DNA of 64,000 nucleotides. It comes from Brachybacterium paraconglomeratum. Its GTDB lineage: Bacteria; Actinomycetota; Actinomycetes; Actinomycetales; Dermabacteraceae. The first letter of the stretch is position 1. Each line of letters opens with the position of its first letter. The position numbers and the translations under genes are program-made. The notes beneath the pieces were generated by a model. The model had not been told where the DNA came from and ran no database searches. It was given only the letters and a program-made list of their open reading frames with translations. Where the stretch lies: the NCBI RefSeq assembly GCF_003994255.1, contig NZ_ML133856.1, forward strand, positions 62,001 to 126,000, read 5' to 3'. Below are positions 40,789 through 62,791 of the stretch, in pieces.

Positions 40789-41502
40789 ATGACCGATGCG
40801 AGCGACCCCGGTGCCCTCCTGGCACCCTCCCCGCTGGAGACGTGGCCGCCCGCGTGGTCCCCGGCCGCCGTGGTGATGGACTGCGACGGACTGCTGGTGG
40901 ACACCGAGGGGCGCTGGCTCGCGCTGCAGGAGGACTATCTCGCCGACCACGGCGCGTCCCTCGACCCGGAGGCGCGCCGCGCCCTGACCGGCCGGCCGAT
41001 CGAGGTCGTGGTCACCGCGATCGCCGAGGCCATCGGCAAGGACCCGCACCGCGCCGGGGCGGAGCTCATGGCCGCCCACCAGGAGCGTCTGGAGGAGCCG
41101 CTGGTGCCGCTGCCCGGAGCGGTCAGGACCGTCCGGGCGGTCGCCGCGGTGCGCCCCGTCGCCGTCGCCTCGAACTCCCCGCGGGACCTGCTGGAGCGGA
41201 CCCTCGACGCGCTCGGCCTCACCGACGCCTTCGACGCCCGGGTCTCCCTCGACGACGTCGCCGCCGGGAAGCCGGCCCCCGACCTCTACCTCGCCGCCGC
41301 CGCGGCGCTCGGCGCCGATCCCGCCGACTGCCTGGCGCTGGAGGACTCTGAGACCGGCGCCCGGGCCGCCCTCGCCGCCGGGATGCAGCTCATCGCGGTG
41401 CCGTCGATCCCCGGCCAGGACCCCGTCGCGCCGCGCCGGCTCGACTCCCTCGAGGACCCCGTCCTCGCCGACTGGATCTCGACCTGGGAGGCCCGCCGAT
41501 GA
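40789..41502 (+). CDS. HAD-superfamily phosphatase (first of tandem pair)
   Basis: 237-residue subfamily IA HAD hydrolase. Motif I VMDCDGLLVDTEGRW (nucleophile Asp), motif II serine in VASNSPRDLLE, motif III lysine in AGKPAPDLYLAAAAALG, motif IV CLALEDSETGARAAL. Resembles beta-phosphoglucomutase/sugar phosphatases; substrate unknown. About 30 residues precede motif I. Overlaps the second HAD gene by 4 bases, and the two proteins align along their length, indicating a tandem duplication. Confidence 0.87.
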   Translation: MTDASDPGALLAPSPLETWPPAWSPAAVVMDCDGLLVDTEGRWLALQEDYLADHGASLDPEARRALTGRPIEVVVTAIAEAIGKDPHRAGAELMAAHQERLEEPLVPLPGAVRTVRAVAAVRPVAVASNSPRDLLERTLDALGLTDAFDARVSLDDVAAGKPAPDLYLAAAAALGADPADCLALEDSETGARAALAAGMQLIAVPSIPGQDPVAPRRLDSLEDPVLADWISTWEARR

Positions 41503-42176
41503 GCACCGCGCCCGACCGCTTCGCCCGCGCCTTCGGCGACTGGACCCCGCGCGCCGTCGTCTTCGACTGCGACGGCCTGCTGCTGGACACCGAGTCGGTG
41601 TGGCAGCGCGCCCAGGACACGGTCGTCGCCGCGCGCGGCGCGGTCCTGGACCCCGAGGACGACGCCGTGCTGCACGGCTCGACGATCGAGGTCGCCGCCG
41701 AGCTGATCGCCCGCCGCTCCAACCACACCGAGGCCGAGGTCCTCGCCGACCTGCACCGCGAGTTCGACCACGAGCTCTCCGGCGGGGTGCGCACCCTGCC
41801 CGGCGCGGCCGAGGTGCTGCGGGCGGCAGCGGCCCGGGTGCCGCTGGGCTGCGCCTCGAACTCCTGGCTCGAGGCGCTGGACCATAAGCTCGTCGCCGGC
41901 GGCCTGCGGGAGCACTTCACCGTCCTGGAGGCCTCGGACACCGTCGAGAACCCCAAGCCGGCCCCCGACATGTACGCTGCGGCGGCCCGCGCCCTGGGAC
42001 AGCGGCCCGAGGACTGCCTGGCCCTGGAGGACTCAGGGACCGGAGCCCGCGCCGCCCGCGACGCGGGGCTGCGCCTCATCGCGGTCCCCGCCCCCGGGCA
42101 CCCCGTCCCGCCCGCGGACCTCGCCCTCACCTCCCTCACCGATCCCGAGCTCGCGGCCTGGATCGCGACCTGGTGA
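41499..42176 (+). CDS. HAD-superfamily phosphatase (second of tandem pair)
   Basis: 225-residue paralogue of the preceding protein. Motif I VFDCDGLLLDTESVW, motif II CASNSWLEALD, motif III NPKPAPDMYAAAARALG, motif IV CLALEDSGTGARAA; both end in a similar helix (LADWISTW versus LAAWIATW). Sugar or nucleotide phosphatase of unknown specificity, translationally coupled through ATGA. Confidence 0.87.
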   Translation: MSTAPDRFARAFGDWTPRAVVFDCDGLLLDTESVWQRAQDTVVAARGAVLDPEDDAVLHGSTIEVAAELIARRSNHTEAEVLADLHREFDHELSGGVRTLPGAAEVLRAAAARVPLGCASNSWLEALDHKLVAGGLREHFTVLEASDTVENPKPAPDMYAAAARALGQRPEDCLALEDSGTGARAARDAGLRLIAVPAPGHPVPPADLALTSLTDPELAAWIATW

Positions 42177-42258
42177 CCCGGGAGGGGATCCCGCGCGGAT
42201 GTCCGCGCATGTCACCCGAGTTGGCCCCCGGGCGCCGATCCGGTGTTCACTGGACCCC

Positions 42259-44163
42259 ATGACCACTTCGTCGGACCCCTCCGCGCCCCTGACCTCCCGC
42301 GCCCACGGCTCGCCGCTGCGCGGCCGCGGCTGGCTGAACACCGGCGGCGCCGAGCTGGACCTCGAGACGCTGCGCGGGAAGATCGTGCTGCTGGACTTCT
42401 GGACGTTCTGCTGCGTGAACTGCCTGCACGTCCTGGACGAGCTGCGCCCCCTCGAGGAGAAGTGGGCCGATGAGCTCGTCGTCATCGGCGTGCACTCCCC
42501 GAAGTTCGAGTTCGAGAAGGACCCCGAGGCGCTGCAGGCCAACATCGAGCGCTACGAGGTCTCCCACCCCGTGATCGACGATCCGGAGCTGGAGACCTGG
42601 AGCGCCTACGGCGCCCGCGCCTGGCCCACCCTGATGGTCCTGGACACCCACGGCCGCATCGCCGGCAACCTCTCCGGCGAGGGCCATGCCGCGAACCTCG
42701 ACCGCCTGGTCGCCGAGCTCGTCGCCGAGGGCGAGGCCGACGGCTCGCTGCGTCGCGGCCCCGCGCCGACCGTCCTCGCCGAGCGGACCGAGCAGACCCT
42801 CCGCTTCCCCTCGAAGCTCGCCGTCCTGCCCGACGGCCGGCTGGTGGTCTCCGACGCGGGCCAGCACCGCCTGGTCGTCTTCCAGGCCGACGGCGCGACG
42901 GTCGACGCGATCATCGGCACCGGGGAGCGCGGCCATGCCGACGGCGACGAGGACACCGCCCGGTTCGCCGAGCCCAACGGCGTCCTCGCCCTGCCCGCCG
43001 AGGTCGCCCAGGAGGTCGGCTACGACCTCCTGGTCGCCGACACCGCCGGGCACCGCCTGCGCGGCGTGAAGATCGGGCAGGACCGCCTGCTGCGCTCCCG
43101 CACCACGACCGAGGTCACCACCCTCGCCGGCACCGGCGAGCAGTGGATGCAGGGCGAGCCGCTGCCGCGCGGCGAGGGCGATGCCCGCTCCTACAGCCTC
43201 TCCACCCCCTGGGACCTCACCTGGAGCCACTCCCTGAACCGGGCAGTGATCGCCATGGCCGGGATCCACCAGCTGTGGACCTACGACCCCGCCACCGGCG
43301 CCCTGCTGGTCCTCGCGGGCACCACCCAGGAGGGCCTGGTCGACGGCCCCGCCGTCACCTCCTGGTGGGCGCAGCCCTCGGGCCTGGACGAGATGCCCGA
43401 CGGCCGAATCGTGATCGCGGACTCCGAGTCCTCCGCGGTGCGCCTCCTGGACCCGCAGACCATGCAGGTCAGCACCCTGGTGGGCAAGGGCCTGTTCGAC
43501 TTCGGCCATGTGGACGGACCGCTCGACCGGGCCCGCCTCCAGCACCCCCTCGGCGTGACCGCCCTGCCCGACGGGCGCATCGCGATCGCCGACACCTACA
43601 ACGGCGCGATCCGCCTCCTGGACGAGGAGACCGGCGAGGTCGTCACCGTCGCGACCGACCTCAAGGAGCCCTCCGATGCGATCGTCGGCCCGCCCGTGGA
43701 CGGGATCGGCCAGCTGATCGTCGTCGAGTCCGGCGCGCACCGCATCACCTGGGTGCCGGTCGCGAAGGCCGCCGAGCGCGTGATCGACGAGGGCGCCCAG
43801 CGCTCCGAGCGGCCCGCGACCGAGGTGGGTCCCGGCCCGCTCACCGTGCGCGTGCTGTTCACGCCGCCGCCCGGGCACAAGCTCGACGACTCCCTCGGGC
43901 CGTCCACGCAGGTCACGATCGCGACCACCCCCACCTCGATGCTGACCGGCGGGGGAGGGGTGGACACCGCTCTCGAGCGCACCGTGACCCTCGACCCCGC
44001 GTACGCCGAGGGCGTCCTCCACGTCAGCGCCCGCGCCGCCTCCTGCGACGCGGACCCGGCCGTGGAGTTCCCCGCCTGCCACATGCACCAGCAGGACTGG
44101 GGGGTCCCGATCCGAGTCGTCGAGGGCGGCCCGGATCATCTGGACCTCTCCCTGCTCGCCTGA
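42259..44163 (+). CDS. thioredoxin-like protein with NHL-repeat propeller
   Basis: 634 residues. Residues ~15-160 are a thioredoxin fold with the redox motif CCVNC in FWTFCCVNCLHVLDELRP. Residues ~185-500 carry NHL-type propeller repeats (for example KLAVLPDGRLVVSDAGQHRL, QPSGLDEMPDGRIVIADSES and HPLGVTALPDGRIAIADTYN). A C-terminal beta domain follows. The layout is that of NHLRC2-type proteins, whose biochemical role is unclear. No signal peptide. ATG 42259 has no ribosome site and may be leaderless (TTCACT seven bases upstream); an in-frame ATG at 42199 seems too early. Confidence 0.83.
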   Translation: MTTSSDPSAPLTSRAHGSPLRGRGWLNTGGAELDLETLRGKIVLLDFWTFCCVNCLHVLDELRPLEEKWADELVVIGVHSPKFEFEKDPEALQANIERYEVSHPVIDDPELETWSAYGARAWPTLMVLDTHGRIAGNLSGEGHAANLDRLVAELVAEGEADGSLRRGPAPTVLAERTEQTLRFPSKLAVLPDGRLVVSDAGQHRLVVFQADGATVDAIIGTGERGHADGDEDTARFAEPNGVLALPAEVAQEVGYDLLVADTAGHRLRGVKIGQDRLLRSRTTTEVTTLAGTGEQWMQGEPLPRGEGDARSYSLSTPWDLTWSHSLNRAVIAMAGIHQLWTYDPATGALLVLAGTTQEGLVDGPAVTSWWAQPSGLDEMPDGRIVIADSESSAVRLLDPQTMQVSTLVGKGLFDFGHVDGPLDRARLQHPLGVTALPDGRIAIADTYNGAIRLLDEETGEVVTVATDLKEPSDAIVGPPVDGIGQLIVVESGAHRITWVPVAKAAERVIDEGAQRSERPATEVGPGPLTVRVLFTPPPGHKLDDSLGPSTQVTIATTPTSMLTGGGGVDTALERTVTLDPAYAEGVLHVSARAASCDADPAVEFPACHMHQQDWGVPIRVVEGGPDHLDLSLLA

Positions 44164-44195: not shown

Positions 44196-46649
44196 GTGGA
44201 TCTGATCACGCAATTCCCCCTCGGCGACGATCTCGCCGTCACCCTGCTCGTCCTCGGCCTGCTGGCCGTGGCCGCGCTCGTCGCCGGGGCGGTCGTGCCC
44301 ACCCGGCTGCGGCGCGACGAGGACAGCGCCGAGGTGGACCCGACCCTCGGACGGCGGCTCGGCGCGCCGCTGCTGTCCTCCGCCTCGATCCTGCTGTGGG
44401 TGGGGCTGCCGCTCGCCGTGGTGGTGTACCTGGCCCCCGGCGGGACCGACGACCGCATCCTGCGCTCGGCGATGCTGCTGGTCGGGCTCGCGCTCGGCCC
44501 GCTCGCGGCCTGGCGGGGCCTGGCGATCCAGCTCGCCGCGCTCGGCGTCGATCCCGAGCGGCGCGGGGCGATGGTCCCGCGTCTGGGGGCGCTCACGGTC
44601 GCCGGCGCGCTCGCGCTCGCCGCGCTGCCCGTGGTGATCGCGGTGTGGTTCCTGCAGACCACGGCCGGGCCTGCGCTCGTCGCCCTCGCCGCGGGCGCCG
44701 CGATCTCCGCCCTCGTGGTGCGGGCCAGCGCGGCCCCGGTCGAGGCGGGAGCGGCCGCGGCCGCGGTGCTGGTCGGCACCGACGAGCACGAGCTCGACGT
44801 CGACGACGAGGAGAACCTCGGCGGCCCCCACCTGCGCAGCGCCCGCATGGTGCGCCGCGGCGGGGCCCTCGGCGCCGACCTCGTCGCCGTCGCGACCGCC
44901 GGCGCCGCCCTCGGCGTGCTGCTCGGCGTGCCCGTCCTCGCGGCCGAGGGCTTCGTCGTCACGCTGCTGGCGCTGGGCACCGCGCTGCTCGCCGCGGGCG
45001 TCGCCGCCGTCGTCCCCCATGCGGGCCGCGAGGGCCACGAGCGCGGTGCGCTGCAGCTGGGCGGACTGATCCCCTCCGTGCTCGGCGCCGCCGGCGCGGT
45101 CGCCGCCGCGGCGCTGTGGATCCCCTCCCAGTACAAGGACCTCCGCTTCGAGGACGTCGGGCTCGAGAACTTCACCGACCCCGCGATCACCGGCGGCACC
45201 GACACCCCGCGCGAGCAGCTCGAGCCGCAGATCGAGGAGCTCGGCGGCGACCTGAGCCAGTTCATCTCCCAGACGGACGACTCGCAGTACGCCTCCGCCT
45301 TCCTCGACATGCTCGCCCTCTACGGCATCACCCCGAACGTCGTGGTCGCCGTGGCGCTCGGCCTCGGCGCCCTCGCCGCGCTCGCGGCGGTGCTGCTGCT
45401 GGGCGGCACCGGCCACCGCCTGGGCGGCTCCGTGCTGCGCGCCGCCCGCACCTCCCGCACCGGCGGGGCGCTCGGCCTCACCGCCGGCCTGGGCTCCACG
45501 GCGCTGACCGCCGCCGGGGCGCTCGCCCTCGTGGTCCTCATCGCCGCCGTGCTCTCCGTGCTCGCCGCCGGTGTGCCCTCCCTCGCCCTGACCCTCGCGG
45601 TCCACGCCGGCCTCGGCGCGCTGATCGTGGTCGCCGGCCACGCGGGGCCGCTGCTGGCCTCCACGCTGCTGGACCGCGCCGGGGCGGAGAGCGGCTCGCG
45701 CCGCGCCGCGGGCGGCATCGCGACCGGTCCGCTCGGCGCGCTGCTGCTCGCCGCAGTGCTGATCGGCCTCGGAGCCCTCGGACCCGTCGTCTCCGCGCTG
45801 CAGCTCGCCCCGCGCGCCGCGACCGTCTGGGAGGACCGGGCCCTGCACCTGGCGACCCCCGCCTCGCTCACCCTGCTCGGCGGCGTCGCCCTCGGCGTGG
45901 TGACCGTCCTGCTGATGACCTCCTCGCTCCTGGACGGCGCCCGCCGGCTCGGCGCGAACGCGGTCGTGGAGACCCGCGCGGCGATGCTCGAGGGCCGTGA
46001 CGGCGCGGACCTGCCCGAGCTGCCCGAGATGGTGCGACGGGCCGCGCTGACCCCCGTGGTCGTCGCGGTGCTCGCCCCGGTGGTGGCCGGCTTCGGGCTC
46101 GGCCCGGCCGCCCTACCGGGCCTCGTCGTCGGCGTGGTGCTGACCGCGGCGGGCCTGGGGCTGTGGACCCTCGGCTCCGCCTCGACCCTCGCCGGCGCCT
46201 CCGCCGTGATCGGCTCCGGCCGCTACGGCGGCCCCGGCTCCTGGGGGCACTCCGGCGCGCTCGGCGGGGCGGTGCTCACCGGCATCCTGCGCTCCGTGAT
46301 CGGCTCGGTGGCGCTGCCGCTGGCGCTGACCGCTTCGCTGCTCTCCGCGCTCGCGGTGAGCGCCGTGGTGGGGATGAGCACCGACGGCACCAGCTCCTAT
46401 CTCCGCTGGGGCATCGCCGTGGTCGCGATCATCATCGCGCTGACCTGCTGGGTCATCACCGCCACCGCGCCCGAGGTGGACCTCGAGGACGAGCACGAGG
46501 AGCTGTCCCGCCCGCTCTTCTCCCGCAGCGCGGAGGAGGCCCCGGAGGAATCCCTGGACGCGATGGACTGGGAGGTCGACGAGGAGGACCGCCACGAGGT
46601 CACCGTCACCGCCCGGCCCACCCGCAGGAAGCGCAAGGGCAAGGGCTGA
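44196..46649 (+). CDS. degenerate membrane-bound pyrophosphatase homologue, probably inactive
   Basis: 817 residues with about sixteen membrane segments and an acidic then basic C-terminal tail. Several stretches follow H+-translocating pyrophosphatase in order: ARMVRRGGALGADLVAVA (~217-234), ARTSRTGGALGLTAGLGSTA (~417), VAVLAPVVAGFGLGPAALPG (~623) and SGRYGGPGSWGHSGALGG (~674). The catalytic motifs are gone: nothing like DNVGDNVGD follows GADLV, the DAYGPIADNAGG segment reads VHAGLGALIVVAGHAG, and the final GDTVGDPFKDT region reads GGAVLTGILRS. It cannot hydrolyse pyrophosphate in the known way. GTG start with GGAAGC upstream; 32 bases after the thioredoxin-NHL gene. Confidence 0.65.
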   Translation: MDLITQFPLGDDLAVTLLVLGLLAVAALVAGAVVPTRLRRDEDSAEVDPTLGRRLGAPLLSSASILLWVGLPLAVVVYLAPGGTDDRILRSAMLLVGLALGPLAAWRGLAIQLAALGVDPERRGAMVPRLGALTVAGALALAALPVVIAVWFLQTTAGPALVALAAGAAISALVVRASAAPVEAGAAAAAVLVGTDEHELDVDDEENLGGPHLRSARMVRRGGALGADLVAVATAGAALGVLLGVPVLAAEGFVVTLLALGTALLAAGVAAVVPHAGREGHERGALQLGGLIPSVLGAAGAVAAAALWIPSQYKDLRFEDVGLENFTDPAITGGTDTPREQLEPQIEELGGDLSQFISQTDDSQYASAFLDMLALYGITPNVVVAVALGLGALAALAAVLLLGGTGHRLGGSVLRAARTSRTGGALGLTAGLGSTALTAAGALALVVLIAAVLSVLAAGVPSLALTLAVHAGLGALIVVAGHAGPLLASTLLDRAGAESGSRRAAGGIATGPLGALLLAAVLIGLGALGPVVSALQLAPRAATVWEDRALHLATPASLTLLGGVALGVVTVLLMTSSLLDGARRLGANAVVETRAAMLEGRDGADLPELPEMVRRAALTPVVVAVLAPVVAGFGLGPAALPGLVVGVVLTAAGLGLWTLGSASTLAGASAVIGSGRYGGPGSWGHSGALGGAVLTGILRSVIGSVALPLALTASLLSALAVSAVVGMSTDGTSSYLRWGIAVVAIIIALTCWVITATAPEVDLEDEHEELSRPLFSRSAEEAPEESLDAMDWEVDEEDRHEVTVTARPTRRKRKGKG

Positions 46650-46660
46650 GGCGCCGGCGC

Positions 46661-47236
46661 TCAGACGGTCGCGCCGAGCCCCTGCAGCACGAAGCGCTCC
46701 AGCGCCTCGCGCGGGTAGCGCTTCGCGGAGGAGCCGACGAGCAGGCCGTTGATGATCCGGACGGTGCCGGTCACGTCGAGGTCGGCGGAGAAGTCGCCCG
46801 CCGCGATCCCGGCCTCCACGATCGTGCTGAGCACCTCCTCGATCAGCACCACGTGCTCGCGCATCCGCGAGGCCGCGTCGGGGGTGAGGGAGGCCCGGCC
46901 CGCGGCCTGCGGGACGTGGAAGGAGACGGTGAGCTCCAGCTGGGTGCGCACGTAGGCGATGACCGCCTCGCGCGGGGTCGCCGAGTCGCTGACCCCGGCC
47001 CGCAGCTGGGTGATGTAGTCCGTCGTCTCGTGGATCGCGTACTCGATCAGGAGGGTCTCGCGGTCGGGGAAGTGGTTGTACATCGCGGTGCGGCCCACGC
47101 CGGCCGCGGCCGCGATGCGGGAGAAGGTGATGGTCTCGAACTCCTGGGTCTCCAGCAGCTCGGCCAGGGCGGCGAAGATCTTCTCCCGCGTGCGTTCGCG
47201 GTGCTCCTCGAGCGACCCTCCGATGATCTTGGGCAT
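46661..47236 (-). CDS. TetR-family transcriptional regulator
   Basis: 191-residue regulator with the TetR N-terminal helix-turn-helix (FSRIAAAAGVGRTAMYNHFPDRETLLIEY, residues ~38-66) and a helical ligand-binding C-terminal domain. Convergent with the pyrophosphatase-like gene. A TAAGAAT box shortly before the ATG could be a leaderless -10. Target unknown; the TetR-type palindrome in the bkd promoter at 27339 is a candidate but far away. Confidence 0.87.
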   Translation of the reverse strand: MPKIIGGSLEEHRERTREKIFAALAELLETQEFETITFSRIAAAAGVGRTAMYNHFPDRETLLIEYAIHETTDYITQLRAGVSDSATPREAVIAYVRTQLELTVSFHVPQAAGRASLTPDAASRMREHVVLIEEVLSTIVEAGIAAGDFSADLDVTGTVRIINGLLVGSSAKRYPREALERFVLQGLGATV

Positions 47237-47441: not shown

Positions 47442-47452
47442 CTGGTCGCGAG

Positions 47453-47523
47453 AGCGGGTGACGGGAATCGAACCCGCGCTGTCAGCTTGGGAAGCTGAAG
47501 TTCTACCATTGAACTACACCCGC
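47453..47523 (-). tRNA. tRNA-Gly (anticodon CCC)
   Basis: Cloverleaf on the minus strand: acceptor GCGGGTG/CACCCGC, D-arm TAGTTCAATGGTAGAAC, anticodon stem TCAGC/GCTGA with loop TTCCCAA (anticodon CCC), T-arm CGGGTTCGATTCCCG. Discriminator U; CCA is not encoded. Confidence 0.93.
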
Positions 47524-61430: not shown

Positions 61431-61506
61431 TGGTGGCTCCGACCGGCGTCGATCCGGTGACCTTTCGATTTTCAGTCGAACGCTCTACCAACTGAGCTAC
61501 AGAGCC
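61431..61506 (-). tRNA. tRNA-Phe (anticodon GAA), intact
   Basis: Minus strand: acceptor GGCTCTG/CGGAGCC (one G-U pair), D-arm GCTCAGTTGGTAGAGC, anticodon stem TTCGA/TCGAA with loop CTGAAAA (GAA), T-arm CCGGATCGACGCCGG, A discriminator and encoded CCA (61431-61433). Probable -10 TACGCT at 61533-61538 on the minus strand. Confidence 0.95.
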
Positions 61507-61621: not shown

Positions 61622-62644
61622 TCAGTCGAGCGTGATCAGCGCCTTGCCGAGGTTCCGCCCCTTCAGCATCCCGACGAACGCCTCCGGCGCCCTGTCCAGC
61701 CCGATGGTGACGTCCTCGTGATAGCGCACCTCGCCGGAGGCGACCCAGGCGCCCATCTCGCGCTGGAAGTCCTCGAACATCGTCGGCGCGAACTCGCGCT
61801 GGATGAAGCCGCGCAGGGTCAGGCTCTTGGCCAGCACCTGACCCATCAGGGCGCCGCTGCGGTCGGGCCCGTCGGGCAGGGAGGTGGCGTTGTAGTTCGC
61901 GGCGAGCCCGCACACGGGCACGCGCGCGAACTCGTTCAGCAGCGGCAGCACTGCGTCCCACACCGCGCCGCCCACGTTCTCGAAGTACACGTCGATGCCG
62001 TCGGGCGCCGCCGCGGCGAGTCGGCCCGGCAGATCCGGGGCGCGGTGGTCGAGCGCCGCGTCGACGCCGAGCTCCTCGAGCAGCGCGACCTTCCGCTCGC
62101 CGCCGGCGATCGCGATCGTGCGGGCACCGCGCAGGCGGGCGATCTGCGCGACCGCGGAGCCGACGGGGCCGGCCGCCGCGGCGACGGCGAGGGTCTCGCC
62201 GGGCTGCACCTTCCCGATCGCGGTGAGCCCCGCGTAGGCGGTGAAGCCGGGCATCCCGAGCACGCCGAGGGCGGTGGTGACCGGCGCGGCCGCGGGGTCG
62301 AGGCGGTGCAGCCCCGCGACCTCCTCGACGCTGTACTCCTGCCAGCCGCCGTAGCCGAGGACTACGTCGCCCGGGGCGAGGGACTCGTCGGCGGACTCGA
62401 CGACCTCCGAGACGGTGCCGCCGACGATCACGTCGCCGACCTCCATCGGAGCGGCGTAGGACTTCGCATCGTTCATCCGGCCGCGCACGTACGGGTCCAG
62501 GGAGATGTGGAGCGTGCGCAGCAGCGCCTCGCCCGGACCGGGGGAGGGGACGGGTGCGGTGTCGTGGAGGAAGTCGGAGGGGACCGGCTCGCCGTGCGGG
62601 CGGGAGGCGAGGCGGATCCGGCGGTTCTGCAGGTCGGTGCTCAT
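61622..62644 (-). CDS. NADP-dependent MDR oxidoreductase (CurA/LTB4DH-like)
   Basis: 340-residue zinc-free medium-chain reductase of the CurA/leukotriene B4 dehydrogenase group. The N-terminal domain has LLRTLHISLDPYVRGRMNDA, the family hallmark. The cofactor domain has AAAAGPVGSAVAQIARLRGA and IDVYFENVGGAVWDAVLPLL. Reduces alpha,beta-unsaturated carbonyls; substrate unknown. ATG 62644 is set by TACGCT (62651-62656, minus) six bases upstream, a leaderless start; the open frame continues 5' through the tRNA-Asp and is not coding. Confidence 0.88.
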   Translation of the reverse strand: MSTDLQNRRIRLASRPHGEPVPSDFLHDTAPVPSPGPGEALLRTLHISLDPYVRGRMNDAKSYAAPMEVGDVIVGGTVSEVVESADESLAPGDVVLGYGGWQEYSVEEVAGLHRLDPAAAPVTTALGVLGMPGFTAYAGLTAIGKVQPGETLAVAAAAGPVGSAVAQIARLRGARTIAIAGGERKVALLEELGVDAALDHRAPDLPGRLAAAAPDGIDVYFENVGGAVWDAVLPLLNEFARVPVCGLAANYNATSLPDGPDRSGALMGQVLAKSLTLRGFIQREFAPTMFEDFQREMGAWVASGEVRYHEDVTIGLDRAPEAFVGMLKGRNLGKALITLD

Positions 62645-62705: not shown

Positions 62706-62717
62706 CTTCTCGAGGGG

Positions 62718-62791
62718 CGACCCTGACCGGGCTTGAACCGGCGACCTCCGCCGTGACAGGGCGGCACTCTAACCAACTGAGCTACAGGGCC
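62718..62791 (-). tRNA. tRNA-Asp (anticodon GTC)
   Basis: Minus strand: acceptor GGCCCTG/CAGGGTC, D-arm GCTCAGTTGGTTAGAGT, anticodon stem CCGCC/GGCGG with loop CTGTCAC (GTC), T-arm GCCGGTTCAAGCCCGGT, G discriminator. CCA is not encoded (CCC follows). Confidence 0.94.

Follow-up and report, generated by a model that had tools for sequence, protein, structure and literature searches.

A predicted non-catalytic membrane pyrophosphatase paralogue encoded beside HAD and thioredoxin-NHL genes in Brachybacterium

Brachybacterium paraconglomeratum encodes a protein that, judged by profile comparison and predicted fold, is a true relative by descent of the membrane pyrophosphatases (mPPases), and that from its sequence almost certainly would neither hydrolyse pyrophosphate nor pump. 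One actinobacterial family retains this paralogue both in genomes with a working mPPase and in genomes where none was found, and its present role is probably a new one that involves no enzymatic activity. The preferred reading, which is given a probability of about 0.4, is a pseudoenzyme in the membrane that would act as receptor or anchor for the HAD and TrxNHL proteins encoded just upstream. A preliminary description had proposed a repurposed, non-hydrolytic mPPase relative, and this is supported by the homology in profile and fold, the loss of catalytic and gate residues, the dN/dS values, the family-wide presence and a canonical hppA at another place in this genome. The DNA analysed (the window) is 64,000 nt long and covers positions 62,001 to 126,000 of the forward strand of contig NZ_ML133856.1 (assembly GCF_003994255.1). 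The features of interest are:

40789..41502, forward strand: HAD-family hydrolase 1, in the presumed operon (domain matches, locus comparison)
41499..42176, forward strand: HAD-family hydrolase 2, overlapping HAD 1 by 4 nt
42199..44163, forward strand: TrxNHL gene (thioredoxin-like plus NHL propeller), SOQ1/NHLRC2 homologue, 32 nt upstream of the paralogue
44196..46649, forward strand: putatively non-catalytic mPPase paralogue, 817 aa, GTG start (orthologues, hhalign, model)
44766..44879, forward strand: end of helix 5 to helix 6, residues 191-228, former Mg-PPi cage (alignment)
45120..45329, forward strand: insertion between helices 8 and 9, residues 309-378, acidic, predicted extracytoplasmic, low model confidence
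45672..45677, forward strand: D493 (acid kept) and R494 (catalytic Asn to Arg), end of helix 11 (alignment)
46188..46304, forward strand: loop 15-16 and start of helix 16, residues 665-703 (alignment)
46395..46463, forward strand: predicted 17th helix, residues 734-756, aligning to the end of the catalytic enzyme (model)
46464..46646, forward strand: charged tail, residues 757-817, predicted cytoplasmic, low model confidence from 765
46661..47236, reverse strand: TetR-family regulator, convergent, downstream of the paralogue in 34 of 36 fetched loci

The reading frame starts with GTG at 44196 and ends with the stop codon at 46647-46649, in an open frame of 820 codons; the length of 817 residues given in the preliminary description refers to this same ORF. 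That a many-helix membrane protein with a charged tail is encoded was also correct, while the earlier helix count of about 16 and the tail length of 65 residues have to be adjusted. The model and the alignment read together suggest 17 helices, which would place the C-terminal tail on the cytoplasmic side, and the tail comprises 61 residues.

Structures of mPPases (PF03030) are available from T. maritima, V. radiata and P. aerophilum. The colinearity with the H+-pyrophosphatases first noticed at several places extends far beyond chance: hhalign of 34 orthologues against 18 catalytic mPPases gave a probability of 100 and an E-value of 9.2e-40 over 666 columns with 24% identity, and against the single hppA protein of the same genome an E-value of 3.3e-24, with the alignment reaching residue 755. 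Two other polytopic proteins of the window, run as single sequences against the same profile, gave E-values of 0.68 and 0.55, which rules out chance similarity caused by composition. In the other direction, the paralogue profile picks out the hppA protein of its own genome (107.8 bits, E 2.7e-31). The profile match proposed earlier as a check is thus strong at the level of the family, but PF03030 itself gives no match to the window protein (hmmscan, E <= 10) and the gathering cut-off is not reached. PF03030 matches 19 of the 34 orthologues at E <= 0.001, and NCBIfam NF001952 matches the window protein with an E-value of 7e-12.

An AlphaFold2 model built from the orthologues (pLDDT 81.2, pTM 0.85) has low confidence in the insertion between helices 8 and 9 and in the tail. 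All 36 Foldseek matches to the PDB at E <= 0.001 are mPPases, with TM-scores by target of 0.69-0.76, so the predicted fold is the one that the preliminary description had expected. AlphaFold2 training included mPPases, and the model is therefore not fully independent of prior structures. Significant profile similarity together with a fold of 15-17 helices places the protein in the mPPase superfamily. In a tree made with a quick method eight paralogues group together (SH-aLRT 100) at the end of a very long branch, and no conclusion is drawn from where this branch attaches among the catalytic enzymes.

The conserved set of Asp, Asn and Lys residues that binds Mg2+ and PPi in functional mPPases is lost in the paralogue. 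The window protein keeps one of 22 catalytic residues, and the 37 orthologue rows including it keep zero to four, while 84 of 85 catalytic mPPase rows keep all 22 and the remaining one, cut by a contig end, keeps 18. D16.39 is kept in none of the 37 rows. Among the ion gate positions scored (E6.53/57, D6.50, S6.54, D/N16.46 and K16.50) the window protein keeps D6.50 only. In the 37 rows E6.53 is replaced by Ala in 32, S6.54 by Leu or Val in all and K16.50 by Leu in 31, and apart from D6.50, retained in 29, the gate positions are mostly Ala, Leu or Val. What is shared with the mPPases, besides the predicted fold and the colinear columns, is the frame of loop 5-6 (E197 and N207), in most rows D6.50, and R594; E197 and R594 are invariant in the 37 rows, which come from four genera. 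E197 and D228 are 31 residues apart, the same distance as between E215 and D246 of the hppA protein in this genome.

The acidic motifs were at first described as all replaced by small or hydrophobic residues. The catalytic loss holds, but some acids survive and others have become arginine, the acidic Mg-PPi cage being partly inverted to arginine. In residues 191-228 an Asn has become R214, an Asp R217 and D6.43 R221, with E197 and the gate residue D228 retained, while in residues 665-703 K16.38 corresponds to R699 and D16.39 to S700. In 21 D/N/E columns, hand-chosen as catalytic or gate positions, 124 of 699 cells are Arg (17.7%), against a background of 2.7% in the rest of these helices; Asp or Glu persists in 104 of the 699 cells, and 64 of these 104 fall in two columns. 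Only two of 2000 random column sets reached the observed Arg fraction. Eight inner-ring columns are Arg in at least 18 of the 37 rows, and seven of these lie at or adjoin catalytic positions. At five inner-ring or catalytic-site positions 31 of the 37 rows have at least three Arg; the pattern is weak in three g23 rows (1/5), in g25 (2/5) and in two Brachybacterium rows (2/5). The alignment of helices 11-12 is unstable, D482 pairing with Arg in one run and with Ala in another, and R502 was for this reason left uncounted.

When it comes to the gene neighbourhood, the order is HAD-HAD-TrxNHL followed by the paralogue. The survey of conserved neighbours suggested in the preliminary description found TrxNHL upstream in 35 of 36 fetched loci, the contig of the 36th beginning inside the paralogue, and HADs upstream in 35 of 36. 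TrxNHL overlaps the paralogue by 4 nt in three loci of two other genera, and in three g23 loci two HAD motifs share a single frame of 483 codons. Further downstream many loci carry genes for membrane transport (UMF1-type MFS, mnhA). A larger gene block is conserved within Brachybacterium, so the adjacency there is partly general synteny. Since TrxNHL and the HADs also occur without the paralogue in genus g27, any dependence is at most one-way; TrxNHL is found in other families as well.

TrxNHL is homologous to plant SOQ1 (E 1.7e-85) and animal NHLRC2 (E 5.9e-57), and according to Pfam and PDB-sequence matches HAD and CC(V/I)NC Trx-NHL modules are encoded together here, as they are in SOQ1, where the order is HAD, membrane helix, Trx, NHL (PMC6107167). 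Unlike in SOQ1 the modules are separate genes, and in place of a single helix the membrane part, if it interacts with them, would be a protein derived from a pump. For NHLRC2 homologues the same paper, which looked at seven bacterial genomes, reports no conserved neighbours (PMC6107167).

The gene order makes it reasonably likely that the function of the paralogue is tied to the HAD-TrxNHL genes. Of the "scaffold, channel or sensor" first considered, a cation channel is less likely, since hydrophobic residues now occupy the gate positions, and the operon partner favours a receptor or anchor. In such a receptor an anionic ligand (phosphate, PPi, a sugar phosphate or another polyanion) would be bound without metal in the cytoplasmic funnel, where arginines partly take the place of the acidic Mg cage. 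Alternatively, the funnel might dock the acidic TrxNHL protein, NHLRC2 having an acidic putative binding cleft (PMC6107167), or the acidic tail of the paralogue itself (DLED...PLF). Either event would serve to position the HAD/TrxNHL pair at the membrane or to switch it there, perhaps with a relay through the surviving bundle of helices to loop 8-9 on the extracytoplasmic side. A ligand or docking step at an arginine pocket is a tentative suggestion, and since the arginine pattern is weak in divergent genera and in two Brachybacterium rows, the function shared by all paralogues may be another one than ligand binding in a pocket. The most specific version, a former proton pump acting as a metal-free, arginine-lined phosphate or polyanion receptor that recruits and gates the HAD/Trx-NHL pair as an unfused bacterial counterpart of SOQ1, is unlikely to hold in full.

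The paralogue could instead be a purely structural membrane or envelope protein, in which loops 8-9 and 12-13 link the outer face to the cytoplasm and no ligand is bound. The mPPases have neither the 70-residue insertion in loop 8-9 nor the conserved tail. With a mean identity of 0.81, outer loop 12-13 ranks with the most conserved parts, while the insertion is at the level of the whole protein (0.67) with P310, L316, G322 and Q345 invariant, and so are D762-L-E-D765 and P773-L-F775 in the tail (34 rows each). Cytoplasmic loop 15-16 is, however, also well conserved (0.76; G675, R676, G678, G679, G681 and S682 invariant in 34 rows), and the upstream genes encode enzyme-type proteins, and a structural role of this kind is considered improbable. 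Somewhat less probable still is an anion or solute transporter or channel, in which the arginine-lined funnel would have turned the cation path into an anion path. The net charge of the funnel at 29 columns has indeed shifted from between -6 and -9 in 85 catalytic rows to between -3 and +4 in the 37 paralogue rows, D6.50 is mostly retained, and the transport genes further downstream would fit. On the other hand, the Ala, Leu and Val of the gate leave little polar path at the membrane centre, and the genes directly upstream encode soluble-type enzymes.

The paralogue is found in 37 of 38 Brachybacterium genomes and in three further genera (g23-g25), and thus in more genomes of its family than the working pump. 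A catalytic mPPase was found in 18 of the 38 Brachybacterium genomes; the PF03030 search found none in the other 20, 16 of them near-complete, nor in the six genomes of g23-g25, all with the paralogue present. The canonical hppA whose presence the preliminary description wanted checked does exist in the window genome, at 234511-236562 of another contig (C4) than that of the paralogue. It has the full catalytic set, scores 806.6 bits to PF03030, where the paralogue has no match, and has the K+-insensitive 8b37 as its best PDB relative. The mPPases form homodimers, and there is evidence that their subunits communicate (PMC10897367); with both genes in the genome a regulatory pseudoenzyme could form mixed dimers with the catalytic mPPase and tune it. 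The two genes are nevertheless on different contigs, and 22 near-complete genomes have the paralogue without a detected catalytic mPPase, so pairing with the active enzyme cannot be obligatory; as a general function a partner subunit is ruled out by these genomes, and the regulatory reading is very unlikely. The paralogue resembles pseudoenzymes such as the AdoMetDC prozyme of T. brucei (PMC5201418) in being an inactive paralogue under selection, and differs from pseudoenzymes generally in occurring, in those 22 genomes, without a detected active copy.

Scans of genome contigs with the single window protein gave no match. A search with the family alignment found 178 relatives, the best 79 loci of which were taken further; 21 of these are from Brachybacterium, and the other 58, some on contig fragments, each have at least one intact catalytic motif. 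In a single-protein search of 149 genomes of the order all 19 motif-checked loci outside the family carry three catalytic motifs. PF03030 matched 271 of 344 genomes of the class (weakest best match 3.6e-106). With no match to the window protein, and with at least one genome that has the paralogue (G011) scored as empty, such a scan would overlook copies elsewhere that have diverged as far.

Some observations could be taken to indicate pseudogene decay or an artefact of assembly: the ORF is interrupted in two genomes (G021, G022), the paralogue evolves faster than the catalytic enzyme and neighbours such as TrxNHL, and dN/dS is 0.90 in one of 11 genome pairs. Constraint and breadth rule this out, since dN/dS is 0.18-0.43 in the other ten pairs, 33 of the 36 loci fetched have an ORF longer than 700 aa, with a contig end truncating one of the remaining three, and E197 and R594 are invariant.

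In the mainly open-access literature searched, largely titles and abstract openings among the matches listed, no description of an inactive mPPase paralogue was found, nor was one found by a word search in a review (PMC11210485); in the same literature no precedent was found for a protein of the mPPase fold with a role outside transport and catalysis. The link to SOQ1 and NHLRC2 matters because human NHLRC2 is essential while its function is unknown (PMC6107167), and because in the lineage studied here TrxNHL has a stable neighbour, the paralogue, with a 4-nt overlap in two genera. To our knowledge the mPPases have been treated as a family with one job. A paralogue that by its sequence has lost both hydrolysis and gate, and that is present where the enzyme is undetected, points to a further role for this fold. 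Its natural substitutions also make it possible to ask which pump parts serve chemistry only. The receptor reading, if true, would give the mPPase fold a function that is neither transport nor catalysis.

The protein considered here is a relative of the membrane pyrophosphatases (mPPases, catalytic gene hppA) and is encoded in a genome of 3.78 Mb by the following gene:

44196-46649, plus strand, open reading frame of the paralogue, 817 residues, GTG start

The closeness to mPPases asserted in the preliminary description is borne out by both profiles and structure. In a protein search of 58 genomes, 51 matched the window protein, the matches being high-identity orthologues in Brachybacterium and ordinary mPPases at about 30% identity, the latter mostly over residues 380-766. 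Residues 550-766 match the NCBIfam pyrophosphatase model NF001952 (E 7e-12, far below the family's own cut-off), and the best PDB sequence in phmmer is the T. maritima mPPase, a weak match (E 0.014). An alignment of 34 orthologues compared by hhalign with one of 18 catalytic mPPases gives a probability of 100 and E 9.2e-40 over 666 columns at 24% identity; with the hppA protein of its own genome alone the value is E 3.3e-24, and two other polytopic window proteins used as controls reach only E 0.68 and 0.55. The orthologue profile also picks up the hppA of the same genome (E 2.7e-31). The profile check proposed earlier holds for the catalytic mPPases, but not for PF03030 itself, to which hmmscan found no match of the window protein at E ≤ 10. 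The structure prediction agreed. An AlphaFold2 model based on an alignment of 19 orthologues with the window protein, free of catalytic mPPases, has a pLDDT of 81.2 and a pTM of 0.85 (pLDDT 73.2-81.2 across the five models). Foldseek returned 305 PDB matches at E ≤ 10. The 36 with E ≤ 0.001 consist entirely of mPPases, the strongest at E 9e-14, and their TM-scores by target range from 0.69 to 0.76; the next match follows at E 0.026.

Residues were compared between 37 paralogue rows (the window protein, 33 fetched frames of more than 700 aa, and three from the genera g23 and g25 of the same family) and 85 catalytic mPPases. Three frames no longer than 700 aa (L080, L095, L096) and the copies of G001, G006, and G061, located without extraction, were excluded, as were the catalytic rows L048 (long extension) and L049 (unusual); the rows of L079 and L094 begin within the protein, their N-terminus being a separate match. 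All 22 catalytic Asp/Asn/Lys columns are kept in 84 of the 85 catalytic rows, and 18 in one row truncated by a contig end. The paralogues keep 0-4 (median 1) and the window protein one, confirming the proposed loss of the catalytic site. The attacking water is contacted in both states by D16.39 (as described in part of PMC10897367), a residue kept in none of the 37 rows; D6.43 is kept in one. The gate residues are those named there, and the helix numbering is our own mapping from the spacings given in the same part of that paper. E6.53 has become Ala in 32/37 rows, S6.54 Leu or Val in all 37, N16.46 Leu in 21, and K16.50 Leu in 31, while D6.50 is retained in 29. Judged by its residues, the paralogue fails the tests that define mPPase function, yet it belongs with the mPPases by descent.

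The acidic Mg-PPi motifs had all been described as replaced by small or hydrophobic residues. This is true of many columns, but some acids persist (E197 in 37/37 rows, D or E at 493 in 34/35, D228 in 29/37), and at 21 D/N/E columns picked by hand 17.7% of the cells (124/699) are arginine, versus 2.7% (158/5811) elsewhere in the same helices, a fraction matched by 2 of 2000 random column sets. Arginine is found in at least 18 rows at eight inner-ring columns; in one of these the catalytic enzyme likewise has Arg, and the other seven lie at or adjoin catalytic positions. At least three of five such positions are Arg in 31/37 rows, with two in L079, L088 (both Brachybacterium), and the g25 row, and one in the three g23 rows. 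Summed over 29 functional columns, catalytic rows have a net charge of -6 to -9, and the paralogues range from -3 to +4. Since related sequences are not independent, these alignment figures show a shared property and not repeated events. In the preferred reading the arginine-lined funnel may bind an anion without metal, or dock an acidic partner or the paralogue's own tail; a rival reading makes the paralogue an anion transporter.

Model and alignment correct the preliminary count of about 16 helices to a predicted 17, the last of which (734-756) aligns with the stretch where the catalytic enzyme ends; the number reported for mPPases is 15-17 (in the part of PMC10897367 used). As the hydrolytic centre of mPPases is cytoplasmic (PMC5150537, in part) and the 17th helix lies at 734-756, the tail (757-817) is then predicted to be cytoplasmic and the acidic 70-residue insertion between helices 8 and 9 (309-378) extracytoplasmic. 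Loop charges agree in direction: inner loops carry on average 23.0 K+R and 23.6 D+E per sequence and outer loops 7.9 and 15.1, with loop borders drawn by ourselves and the summed inner loops longer than the outer. P310, L316, G322, and Q345 of the insertion (mean identity 0.67, near the whole-protein value) and D762, L763, E764, D765, P773, L774, and F775 of the tail are invariant in 34 rows. A second rival is that the paralogue is a structural envelope protein.

Nei-Gojobori dN/dS was calculated by pairing the window genome with 11 others, picked from genomes having both genes. It is 0.18-0.43 for the paralogue in ten pairs and reaches 0.90 with G009, the most divergent, compared with 0.14-0.26 for the catalytic enzyme and 0.13-0.37 for the upstream TrxNHL gene (thioredoxin-like and NHL propeller). 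The coding sequences indicate that the paralogue is constrained, though less so than its relatives. Together with the lost catalytic and gate residues this supports the earlier suggestion of a repurposed, probably non-hydrolytic relative.

Two HAD hydrolase genes and TrxNHL lie upstream at 35 of the 36 loci fetched; at the remaining one the contig starts within the paralogue. A convergent TetR gene lies downstream in 34 (one contig ends; L093 is without TetR). TrxNHL is upstream in all 40 carriers where this region is visible (43 carriers in total), and is also present without the paralogue. A larger block is syntenic within Brachybacterium, so the context argument rests on other genera. In g23 and g25 (L222-L224) the TrxNHL stop and the paralogue start share 4 nt, in G061 a gap of 2 nt separates the two matches, and in g27 HAD-HAD-TrxNHL is followed directly by TetR, the paralogue being absent. 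This g27 TetR (L229:6038-6769, L230:6299-6988) is on the TrxNHL strand, opposite to its orientation at the fetched paralogue loci. In g23 (L223:4818-6266, L224, L226) the HAD genes appear to be fused, two HAD motifs lying in a single 483-codon frame. The window also carries these tRNA genes:

47452-47523, minus strand, tRNA-Gly(CCC), between the TetR and dcd genes
61431-61506, minus strand, tRNA-Phe
62716-62791, minus strand, tRNA-Asp

TrxNHL has NHL and thioredoxin-like Pfam domains and matches SOQ1 (7djj, E 1.7e-85) and NHLRC2 (6gc1, E 5.9e-57). As described in PMC6107167, plant SOQ1 has the order HAD, membrane helix, Trx-like, propeller, and a negatively charged cleft is the likely binding site of NHLRC2; the seven bacterial genomes described there had no conserved neighbours, a HAD gene preceding in one actinobacterium. 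The window TrxNHL contains 52 K+R and 93 D+E. The pairing of an acidic TrxNHL with a membrane funnel lined by arginines is at most a hint; bacteria of this kind commonly have acidic proteins.

The paralogue is found in 43 of 47 genomes of the family (Brachybacterium 37/38, g23 4/4, g24 1/1, g25 1/1, g26 0/1, g27 0/2). It is in pieces or fragments in five Brachybacterium genomes (G001, G005, G006, G021, G022), the copy being interrupted in two of them, with two pieces in the near-complete G021 (L080) and four in G022 (L096, 85% complete). In G024, the only Brachybacterium genome without a detected copy, TrxNHL runs off the contig end. The proposed survey for a second, canonical hppA (PF03030 above 600 bits) found it in 19/47 genomes, namely 18/38 of Brachybacterium and the g26 genome. 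The paralogue occurs without any catalytic mPPase found in 20/38 Brachybacterium genomes, of which 16 reach 90% completeness with no more than 5% contamination, and in all six of g23-g25; a role as partner subunit of an active mPPase is refuted as a general function. One of the 18 Brachybacterium genomes counted there, G012, has an mPPase unlike the other enzymes seen in the genus (L049:1111-3771, 887 codons, 609 bits), with a lipoprotein-like N-terminus and most catalytic motifs in altered context (GADLMKI, GDNAGDSVG). The catalytic mPPase frame of the g26 genome (G066, L221:9468-13535, 1356 aa) continues into a long Ala/Asp/Glu-rich C-terminal extension. Outside the family, all motif-tested related loci (58 + 19) bear catalytic motifs; a class-wide PF03030 scan, which copies diverged like the paralogue could escape, matched 271 of 344 genomes, and none of the best matches was weak.

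Sequences and model show that the protein descends from mPPases and has their fold, that it has lost catalytic and gate residues, that its gene is constrained, and in what order the neighbouring genes lie. No description of such an inactive mPPase paralogue was found in the literature searched, and we call it a pseudoenzyme, its fold being one for which that literature yielded no other. In these bacteria the paralogue may serve the HAD/TrxNHL pair as receptor or anchor at the membrane.
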